From the NCBI RefSeq assembly GCF_037975245.1, contig NC_092572.1, positions 3,013,501 through 3,077,500 on the forward strand: DNA of 64,000 nt. The letters run 5' to 3'. This DNA comes from Apostichopus japonicus (taxonomy: Eukaryota; Echinodermata; Holothuroidea; Aspidochirotida; Stichopodidae). The notes beneath the pieces were generated by a model. That model ran no database searches. It was not told the origin of the DNA and was given only the letters and a program-made list of their open reading frames with translations. Each line of letters opens with the position of its first letter. The first letter of the stretch is position 1. Of the stretch, positions 1 through 15,432 are shown piece by piece. Position numbers and translations under genes: made by a program.

Positions 1-24
1 ACACTGTGACATTTCCTGTAACAA
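1..24 (+). CDS. 3' end of an HYR-like exon (partial, cut by window edge)
   Basis: The first 24 bases are identical to the last 24 bases of the 246-bp exon repeated downstream, followed by the same donor (GTTAGT at 25). This shows that the exon array continues beyond the left edge, so the copy number counted here is a minimum. Confidence 0.75.
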
Positions 25-613
25 GTTAGTACTTTTTGATAGTGTTTTCATTGCAGAAACTGGTAGGCTATCGGTAGTGTCCTTTGTAAAGATGTAATGT
101 TTATAGACTTGTAGTACAATAGGTTAGGTATGAGTATCAGTAGAAAATCCCTTGAAGAACAAAAATAGTAATGATTGTCTTACTGGATATTATACTATGT
201 TGAACTTGTTGGAATATTGTCAAAGTGAGCACATGTGCCAAGGTCATTTCAGTTCCAAATAGAAGTAAGCTAACATCGTTGAAAAAGTACTTTTCCAAAG
301 GAACAGCGTGTAATTTTCTGACAATCTTCCTAGTTAGCAAGATGAAAGTTTATGACAAACAATGGTATCTAATACTGCTTTTCAACAGCATGAGTATAAG
401 TGAAAGGATTGAATTCTAATTAGGAGTTTGGAGGTAATCTTTGATTTGTATCTATACTTTATTTCTAAAGGTGTCAAGTATGAGTATATCAGCTGAGTAA
501 CTATGCAATATATATATATATATATATATATATATTTATATATAACATATATTTATAGTGAAGTATATATGAAGTATAAAAATACTTCCTTTCTTGCTTT
601 CTTGTTGCTTTAG

Positions 614-859
614 AGAAAACGTCTTCTCGGCCATCAATTGAAACATCTCAAAGAGAGTCAGTAAGTTCCTATAACATGGGTAAGAAGGGTGTGCTACATG
701 GCTACAATGCTCCAGTCTGTGAAGATGATGTGGATGGGAACCTCCTAGTAGTCTGCTTTCCACCGTCTGGTATAATTGTTGACAGAGAATATGAGACTAT
801 TCAGTGTAATTGTACAGACTCAGATGGGCTGATGGACACTGTGACATTTCCTGTAACAA
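614..859 (+). CDS. HYR-like extracellular module exon, array copy 1
   Basis: The exon is bounded by an acceptor (TTGCTTTAG, ending 613) and a donor (GTTAGT, 860). It is 246 bp long, exactly 82 codons, starting and ending in phase 1, so it can be repeated, skipped or added without shifting the frame. The first ~20 residues are a Ser/Thr/Gln/Glu-rich linker. The rest carries four cysteines (APVC, LVVC, TIQC-N-C) and the pattern DDVDG...PPSGII...C-x-C-TDSDG...VTFPVT, which resembles the C-terminal half of hyalin-repeat (HYR) domains. HYR domains have an Ig-like fold and occur in adhesive and complement-like proteins. The N-terminal half of a standard HYR is not recognisable, so HYR is tentative. 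No single stretch reads as a stand-alone gene; this is one exon of a larger gene. Confidence 0.75.
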
Positions 860-1492
860 GTTAGTACTTTTTGATAGTGTTTTCATTGCAGAAACTGGTA
901 GGCTATCGGTAGTGTCCTTTGTAAAGATGTAATGTTTATAGACTTGTAGTACAATAGGTTAGGTATGAGTATCAGTAGAAAATCCCTTGAAGAACAAAAA
1001 TAGTAATGATTGTCTTACTGGATATTATACTATGTTGAACTTGTTGGAATATTGTCAAAGTGAGCACATGTGCCAAGGTCATTTCAGTTCCAAATAGAAG
1101 TAAGCTAACATCGTTGAAAAAGTACTTTTCCAAAGGAACAGCGTGTAATTTTCTGACAATCTTCCTAGTTAGCAAGATGAAAGTTGATGACAAACAATGG
1201 TATCTAATATTGCTTTTCAACAGCATGAGTATAAGTGAAAGGATTGAATTCTAATTAGGAGTTTGGAGGTAATCTTTGATTTGTATCTATACTTTATTTC
1301 TAAAGGTGTCAAGTATGAGTATATCAGCTGAGTAACTATGCAATATATATATATATATATATATATATATATATATATATATATATATATATATATATAT
1401 ATATATATATATATATATATATAACATATATTTATAGTGAAGTATATATGAAGTATAAAAATACTTCCTTTCTTGCTTTCCTGTTGCTTTAG

Positions 1493-1738
1493 AGAAAACG
1501 TCTTCTCGGCCATCAATTGAAACATCTCAAAGAGAGTCAGTAAGTTCCTATAACATGGGTAAGAAGGGTGTGCTACATGGCTACAATGCTCCAGTCTGTG
1601 AAGATGATGTGGATGGGAACCTCCTAGTAGTCTGCTTTCCACCGTCTGGTATAATTGTTGACAGAGAATATGAGACTATTCAGTGTAATTGTACAGACTC
1701 AGATGGGCTGATGGACACTGTGACATTTCCTGTAACAA
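1493..1738 (+). CDS. HYR-like module exon, array copy 2
   Basis: Same 82-codon phase-1/1 exon as copy 1, with the same predicted protein. The preceding intron (860-1492) holds the long uninterrupted (TA)n tract at about 1342-1422. The acceptor tract carries one change (CCTGTTGCTTTAG instead of CTTGTTGCTTTAG). Confidence 0.75.
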
Positions 1739-12960: not shown

Positions 12961-14419
12961 ACTTGGCTACTTATTGGAACTTGTCAAACTTGGTATGATG
13001 ATATTGGTAGATAGTCTCCACACACTGATGTGTGTTGCAATTGATATCATGCATATTTATAAGGGGGAGGGGGGCTAGCAATATTTCGTTATGAAAAGTT
13101 TGTATGCACAATAACTCAACAAGGGAATGACCAATCATTACCATACTTGGTGGGTGGATGGCCCATAGTAAGTACTGTAGATTAACCCTGTTGATTTTGA
13201 TGCTCATATCATGAATATTAATGAGGTCATGTGGTCAAACGTGAAATACTCCAAATTGCAATTACTTGGCTACTACTGTATTACTAGTCGGAATTTCATC
13301 AAACTTGGTATGATGTTAATGGTAGATAGTCTTCACACACTGATGTGTGTTGCAATTGATATCAGGGCTTAGCATTACTTTGGCAACAAAAGTGTGTGTG
13401 CATAAATTTCTGTTGTTGTATTAGGGCTTTGTTAGAAATTTCCCTATGAATGGAACTAATGAACAGCAGCAAGGAACCATGAAATGTTTTCATTCTGGTT
13501 CTAGAGAAGCATCAGTTGCAATTAGGACTTTCATTCAACCATCATACAACATGTAACAGTATATATTCCTTTACATTACCGTGTTCAATTCACAACACAA
13601 CAGCCCAAGCTAAGTTGGACATTACCAAAAACAAAGCTAGCATTATGGCATGAGTGCTGCAGACAAGCAATGCAATGTTGGAACACTGCAGTCTGTTATG
13701 CTCCATTGTAAGCATCATTATACTGAATGCGCATGTTTTTACTCACTGTACGCGTACTGTACAGCAATATTTCAGGATAGACCATTCTGTATGTGCATGC
13801 AGCTGTATCTACCCAGCCTGTGCGTGTCGCGCAATAGGTATGCATAAAGTTAGGGTACGTGTGGTTGCGCGGATTGATTGCAACTATCGTTAAAGAACAG
13901 CATAAGGAACAGTATTTACCTAATTTAGTACCATGAAGCTGATTTTGCTCGCAATGTTTTGGAGGATTTAGAGATTAGTGCAGAACTGACTGTGAGGATA
14001 ATGTAGTTAGAGTTTTGTACATCAACTTAGTGAAAAATATTTTATTTTACTAGCCCATCGGGCTTCTACTTGTAAACTGGCACTAGTCCTAGTGAGTTTG
14101 AACTAGCCCCGGACTAGCAGGCTTACGTATTTGTCGAGCCCTGGGGCGTAAAGTGAAAAATTCTTTCAAACTTTCCTCGTTAGCAAGATGGCAAGTTATG
14201 AAAACCAACAGTATCTAACATTGCATTTCAATAGCATGAGTATGAGGGTAAGGCACAAAGTCTAATTAGGAGTTTGTAATCTTTGATTTGTATCTATACT
14301 TACAGTAGTTTCCAAAATTGGCAAATATGAGTATATCAGGTAACTATGCAATATAGATGGACGGACGGACGAAGTATACCTACTGTATACTTCCTTTTCT
14401 TTCTTTCTTGTTGCTTTAG

Positions 14420-14665
14420 AGAAAACATCTTCTCCCCCATCAGTTGAAACACCTCACAGAGAGTCAGCAAGTTCCTATAACATGGGTAAGAAGGGTGTGC
14501 TACATGGCTACAATGCACCAGTCTGTGAAGATGATGTGGATGGGAACCTCCCAGTAGTCTGCTATCCACCGTCTGGTATAATCGTAGACAGAGAATATGA
14601 GACTATTCAGTGTAATTGTACTGACTCAGATGGGCAGGTGGACAGCGTGACATTTCCTGTAACAA
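14420..14665 (+). CDS. HYR-like module exon, isolated diverged copy 8
   Basis: The exon keeps the same borders (TTGCTTTAG acceptor, GTTAGT donor), the 246-bp length and the 1/1 phase as the array, and all four cysteines. It differs in the linker (SSPPSVETP) and carries QV in place of LM in the TDSDG segment. It shares the NLPVVCY form with copy 7. It is the last extracellular exon before the membrane exon, 623 bp downstream, and its phase-1 end joins that exon correctly. Confidence 0.78.
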
Positions 14666-15288
14666 GTTAGTAATTTATCAACAGAGTTTATTATTTAGAG
14701 AGCCTGGTATGTTGAATATTCTTGACTGTTTGATCAAAGTCCTCTTTACCTTCAATTCCTGCGCCACTATAACCCAAGGTATTTCCCTTTTACACAGCAT
14801 GGTTATCCATCTCTTAAAATTCTGATTAAGTTTGTTACACTTGCAGATGTTGGTATCTTAGAACATTATCCCTTACAAAATGTTTTACTATCAGCCTGTC
14901 TGTGTGACTGATCTTTACAGTAGATCTATCCAAACTTCACTACTTTCACTGAATCCTGACATGAGTGCACCAGTCTATTAATGTATCTAGTATACCCATC
15001 GTGCCTACTATGTAAAGTAAACCTGCTATATAGGTACTTACTGTGGAATAGGTTTCTTAACTAATGAAGTAATACAGTACATGTTGTTGCTTACACATTG
15101 TGTGCACAGTTTGTGTGGGAGAAACAAGCCACATTGAAGGAGTAACCAGTTTTTTGTTACCTATAATGTACACGTAATGAAAATATTAAATGTAAGCTTA
15201 TCTCCGTTCTTACTGTTTTGGTGTCTGAAACGGACAGCTATTTATCTTCTTTTGCCACAAAATGAGATACTTTTTGTCATATTCACAG

Positions 15289-15432
15289 GCATACCTCATG
15301 GGTTGCATCTTTTTTGGAGGAAGGAAAATTGTCTTTTGGTTATTTCAATACTAACAGTGGTGGTAGTGGTACTAATTTTGATTTTTTGTTTCCTGTACAA
15401 GAATCAAAAACAGTTGAATGCAAACCGTGCAG
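15289..15432 (+). CDS. Transmembrane exon of the HYR-like gene
   Basis: Acceptor ATTCACAG (ends 15288) and strong donor GTAAGTG (15433). The exon is 144 bp, entering and leaving in phase 1, so it accepts the phase-1 end of the HYR-like exons; the split codon becomes AGC, Ser. It encodes a short juxtamembrane piece (IPHGLHLFWRKEN), then about 22 hydrophobic residues (CLLVISILTVVVVVLILIFC) and a positively charged stop-transfer segment (YKNQKQLNANR). This arrangement suits a type I membrane protein with the HYR-like modules outside. No other exon-like hydrophobic segment was seen nearby. Confidence 0.78.

Follow-up and report, generated by a model that had tools for sequence, protein, structure and literature searches.

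A gene lying across the left edge of the analysed window has probably lengthened its run of HYR modules from about three to twelve by duplication, formation of a hybrid exon and unequal exchange, and we assign this reading a probability of about 0.72. The window is the whole 64,000-nt stretch C12:3013501-3077500, and coordinates follow its numbering, negative values lying to the left of base 1. The array was found to be larger than first described, including a 5.5-kb tandem duplication and reaching 6.6 kb to the left of base 1, and with the isolated copy the gene has 12 HYR exons. The exons of the gene model are as follows.

-11014 to -10966: predicted signal exon, picked by reading
-10288 to -9956: IgV-like exon 1
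-9084 to -8752: IgV-like exon 2
start -6584: HYR exon A1, wholly left of the window
start -5737: HYR exon B1, wholly left of the window
start -1046: HYR exon A2, wholly left of the window
-221 to 24, forward strand: HYR exon C1, its 3' end in the window (1..24)
614..859, forward strand: HYR exon C2, complete
1493..1738, forward strand: HYR exon C3, complete
2314..2559, forward strand: HYR exon C4, complete
3251..3496, forward strand: HYR exon C5, complete
4163..4408, forward strand: HYR exon C6, complete
5115..5360, forward strand: HYR exon C7, complete
5940..6185, forward strand: HYR exon B2, non-hybrid edge copy
14420..14665, forward strand: HYR exon III, old isolated copy
15289..15432, forward strand: membrane-span exon with AG/GT ends, open and in phase; homologues found at four of the seven paralogous loci
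20801..20865, forward strand: predicted cytoplasmic tail exon 1, placed by frame and splice sites only
21581..21611, forward strand: predicted cytoplasmic tail exon 2, placed by frame and splice sites only
22383..22444, forward strand: predicted cytoplasmic tail exon 3 with the stop codon, placed by frame and acceptor only

Each complete unit is 246 nt (82 codons) long, is preceded by AG and followed by GT, and begins and ends in phase 1. A1 does not differ from A2, B1 and B2 differ at one base, and C2–C7 are identical to one another and one base apart from C1. The repeats are long near-identical direct repeats, well beyond chance, and the locus resembles an exon-unit VNTR in that near-identical symmetric coding units stand in tandem, introns included. 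The original prediction of seven complete symmetric phase-1/1 exons was borne out at 614-6185, as were the older isolated copy downstream ahead of the membrane exon, the common predicted protein of the first six complete copies, and the residues shared by the edge copy at 5940 and the isolated copy at 14420 that are absent from those six (LPVVCY versus LLVVCF; DSVTF versus DTVTF). Its statement that the introns are as conserved as the exons also held, the nine array introns showing pairwise 0–5 differences in ~554 aligned columns outside an (AT)n tract, and the C exons 0–1 of 246.

When the 671.6-Mb genome (35 contigs) was searched at the DNA level with one unit, 30 matches were obtained, every one within 2.64–3.30 Mb of C12, including 11 in this array and the isolated copy. 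Within C12:2940001-3077500 no further unit was detected below E 0.5, the next match being short and stop-bearing (E 0.58). A protein search gave at least 106 matches at E ≤ 0.01 on C12 and other contigs, a lower bound with 150 of 242 candidates scored, and many of these were distant HYR-like exons. Such an abundance of HYR exons may point to an echinoderm. A second tandem HYR exon array was observed at C12:26336952-26338211, with four copies at an exact spacing of 363 bp; the three full units compared were 0–4 bases apart, intron included.

Seven further loci were read within 660 kb on C12, namely P264, P275, P281, P312, P320, P323 and P329 (named by tens of kb). Upstream DNA covered P275, P312, P320, P323 and P329, and an open Ig exon was present in all five; ahead of it, a homologue of the signal exon was found in P320, P323 and P329, the stretches of P312 and P275 yielding none. 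The membrane exon was identified in P264, P275, P320 and P329, and was not found within the stretches of P281, P312 and P323. In the three loci seen from the Ig exon through the membrane exon (P275, P320 and P329), one Ig and three HYR exons were present in each, as against two and twelve in the window gene. Remnants of broken units, with stops or truncation, were observed in P281 (stretch L021:1511-1744) and P323 (stretch L018:994-1080), and truncated Ig-exon relics lie just before an HYR unit in the same two loci (L021:397-471 and L018:211-291, respectively). Since only two of the 14 inner branches of the unit tree were well supported, no order of the paralogues is claimed.

Joined together, the 19 predicted exons of the window gene (a signal exon, two IgV-like exons, 12 HYR exons, the membrane exon and three tail exons) gave one open frame of 3,969 nt whose only stop is the terminal one, corresponding to 1,322 aa. 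This continuous frame and the Ig–HYR–membrane order in three paralogous loci supported the earlier proposal that the array and membrane exons belong to one gene. The gene is thus predicted to be a member of a clustered family of single-pass surface proteins having a signal peptide, an IgV-like domain, HYR modules, a membrane span and a short tail. Its signal exon fell under the hydrophobicity threshold of the screen; the screen also listed alternatives, among them one lying another 2.6 kb upstream and conserved with P320, and these were set aside for the exon whose homologues stand ahead of the Ig exon in P320, P323 and P329. Nothing convincingly matching tail exon 1 was found in the stretches obtained from the paralogues. 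One tyrosine lies at the membrane edge, and because the three tail exons encode none, no ITIM or ITAM was recognized in the tail. All units are probably included by splicing; no sign of alternative choice among them was seen, and the C units all encode the same protein sequence.

Elsewhere in the window, a BEL/Pao-like retrotransposon in long open frames (Peptidase_A17, E 3e-50; Integrase_H2C2) occupies 45885-51046 of the forward strand, and transposon-like sequence lies at 33606-41291 of the reverse strand, with a DUF4371 frame at 33606-34919 and a reverse-transcriptase fragment at 40106-40555. A long tandem repeat with several open frames (IHPS and MDGW runs) was observed at 54221-55089.

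The original prediction had tentatively called the units HYR-like, and this call was upheld by profile comparison and not by the direct Pfam scores. Against Pfam HYR (PF02494, cut-off 21.7 bits), two joined units scored 14.1 bits, with residues 4-81 aligned on profile positions 4-80 of 81, the joined shortened protein scored 20.3 bits, and three single units were unmatched at E 1. With these scores below the cut-off, the HYR identity is based on the hhalign comparison, in which eight units plus two intermediates matched eight more distant exons of the genome (98.9%, E 2.3e-17, 76 columns), both profiles being shallow (Neff 1.9 and 2.6). All four of the distant exons scanned passed Pfam HYR at 30.9–52.2 bits, and both intermediates, scanned likewise, were unmatched. 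The window units accordingly appear to be homologous to accepted HYR domains over their full length; the HYR domain is described in PMC3723904 (citing Callebaut 2000) as an Ig-like extracellular module tied to adhesion. Four of the six cysteines of the canonical HYR exons in the genome are retained in the window units, the first and last being absent; our guess is that these two form one disulphide and were lost as a pair. A single-sequence AlphaFold2 model of exon III (mean pLDDT 52.6) was too poor for use of the fold. Two domains of unknown-function type, DUF4888 (27.2 against 25 bits) and DUF2501 (25.9 against 21), passed on the joined shortened protein as a whole with no stretch passing alone, and were taken as products of repetition.

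As for the tip, the two Ig exons scored 17.8 and 21.5 bits against Pfam V-set (PF07686), under the cut-off of 26, in nearly full-length alignments, and V-set was absent from the joined protein at E 0.1. Sequence searches of the PDB gave weak matches, the best being an antibody heavy chain for the Ig exon (E 0.036, with DSCAM and SIRP alpha among others) and an F5/8 type C domain protein for the distant-HYR profile (E 0.011), and these indicate at most agreement with an Ig fold. A 117-aa open frame with an Ig-like reading (GRYICLLNG) was also observed at 57130-57480 of the forward strand; it had no Pfam match at E 0.001 and is perhaps an exon of a neighboring gene.

The origin of the C exons could be read from the 12 of 246 sites at which A1 and B1 differ. 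At these sites C1 carries the B letter at the first seven and the A letter at the last five, and C2–C7 carry six B letters followed by six A letters; with the letters in random order, the chance of a single switch would be ~0.0025 and ~0.0022, respectively. The intron end preceding C is likewise B-like, and the donor following it is A-like. Exon C is a hybrid with its 5' part from B and its 3' part from A, joined at one switch, and this B-left/A-right make-up is as expected from a crossover in which B of one chromatid met A of another. Because a private base at site 145 is common to all seven C exons, they likely descend from a single founder, and site 98 of the exon needs a second exchange or a conversion. 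A and B are 4.9% apart in the exon and 22.9% apart in the following intron. A global alignment of the intron stretches before exon III (~44–47% mismatch) was discarded as out of register, local alignments with the exon giving ~80%.

The (AT)n tracts of the nine array introns have eight different lengths between 22 and 153 nt, only A2 and C7 sharing one (26 nt), and an interruption of the tract is common to the neighbors C4, C5 and C6. Intron columns 328 and 351 show patchy sharing among units. We speculate that exchange is promoted by these tracts, one of which lies in every array intron.

The A and B exons and their surroundings are themselves present twice.

-7001 to -1464: first copy of the duplication, unexpanded (A-B)
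-1463 to 10235 (1..10235 in the window): second copy, lengthened by the C units (A-C7-B)

The two copies were 98.7% identical over the longest block with gaps counted, with no substitution in 417 and 246 columns and 11 substitutions plus five gaps in 4,271, and the duplication is similarly young to the array. One base is shared at the junction, and no N occurs in 137.5 kb. Truncated Ig-exon relics lie just before A1 and A2 in the respective copies (-6916 to -6857 and -1378 to -1319).

Under the proposed route, old HYR exons A and B would have stood side by side, and a 5.5-kb segment containing both would have been duplicated in tandem. Misaligned recombination between A and B inside the exon would then have created the in-frame hybrid C in the second copy, and unequal exchange among near-identical units would have multiplied C to seven. 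Since every unit is of phase 1-1, any number of units keeps the frame, and the gain or loss of one would change the ectodomain by 82 residues with the Ig tip unaltered; the unit number may still vary. Duplication first and growth afterward would be the simplest order, the alternative being that the first copy once had C units and lost them, in place of growth in the second.

An assembly artefact, in which a short A-B and a long A-C7-B haplotype were assembled one after the other or the number of units was inflated, would account for duplication copies as alike as alleles might be. We nevertheless regard it as unlikely: the 137.5 kb contain no N, the single base shared at the junction leaves no overlap by which two contigs could have been joined there, and the variety of (AT)n lengths makes the units mostly distinguishable. 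Even if the two copies were two alleles, the hybrid C would stand, and the alleles would then differ in unit number.

The dN/dS of the HYR exons was 0.47 over 15 units (105 pairs, which are not independent, and two unit-I rows left out), with 0.28 in the core and 0.98 in the linker, and was 0.55 with unit I included (17 units, 136 pairs). From this analysis the first unit was dropped in P312 and in P320, the third (240 nt) in P275 and the broken ones in P281 and P323, as were the repeat copies of the window gene. The old HYR units are thus constrained, and the C copies are too young or too alike to show selection; the low core value across the family lends indirect support to the transcription and translation of the units. 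Positive selection was not seen on the Ig exon, for which the mean dN/dS was 0.39 (21 pairs of seven exons, range 0.07–0.71), a value that counts against a hypervariable tip. The relics before A1 and A2, the broken unit of P281 and the broken fragment of P323 could be taken to indicate a decaying pseudogene whose repeats spread without selection, which we consider improbable given that none of the 19 predicted exons is interrupted or out of phase and that the HYR core is held at 0.28 across the family.

The original prediction had coupled rapid expansion with gene conversion; recent growth was supported, unequal crossing-over within an exon proved to be the best-marked event, and conversion is only one option for intron columns 328 and 351 and exon site 98. 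Homogenization mainly via conversion with no recent change in number would suit the patchy sharing at those three positions, but is very improbable considering the three HYR exons in each of the three complete paralogues, the B-type left and A-type right flanks of C, which a crossover gives directly, and the interruption shared by neighbors C4–C6, which fits local multiplication.

With respect to function, the simplest reading is that the HYR run would serve as a stalk that sets the Ig tip at a greater distance from the membrane. A polymorphic recognition locus, in which alleles differ by stalk length through AT-aided exchange with the IgV tip kept, yielding heritable length types for recognition of self, gametes or microbes, is a far more speculative idea to which we give little credence.

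The founding step in long-lived coding arrays is usually erased through later exchange. Here the parent exons, the hybrid, the unexpanded A-B and the expanded A-C7-B adjoin, so that one assembly is enough to trace a route from three modules to twelve. The locus also marks a clustered IgV–HYR family and is itself a place where length variation would be directly testable. In the literature searched, outside which most subscription journals lay, no paper on an IgV–HYR receptor cluster was found.

The window array is an exon-unit array of the kind represented by LPA KIV-2 or VERL, here seen in one assembly. As described for LPA kringle IV type 2 of human apolipoprotein(a) in PMC12776774, tandem coding units of an extracellular domain set the protein size by their number. 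The module is HYR here and a kringle there, the variation in unit number documented there stands against a single assembly here, and it is here that an expanded copy, founded by a B/A hybrid, adjoins an unexpanded one. In abalone VERL, according to the account in PMC2704960, the interior repeats are homogenized (>95% identity, repeats 3-22) and the edges diverged, as are A, B and III relative to C; its repeats of ~153 aa, however, adjoin without introns, whereas every unit here is an exon with its own intron, and VERL is an egg-coat protein with another domain.

Among echinoderm proteins, EBR1_5 of strongylocentrotid sea urchins is, like the predicted product of the window gene, a membrane protein with HYR domains, seven in number; unlike it, EBR1_5 is reported in PMC5521101 to have a SEA domain and positive selection in three HYR domains, whereas the HYR core is conserved here and an IgV-like tip is present. 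The Sp185/333 (SpTransformer) genes of the purple sea urchin, as characterized in PMC3091723, likewise lie clustered as one family, in which tandem segmental duplication has been recent and microsatellites stand next to the repeated units. What is repeated there, however, is whole genes, diverse and with flanking GA tracts, and the proteins are, by their descriptions, unrelated, whereas the window array repeats single near-identical exons whose introns carry an (AT)n tract.
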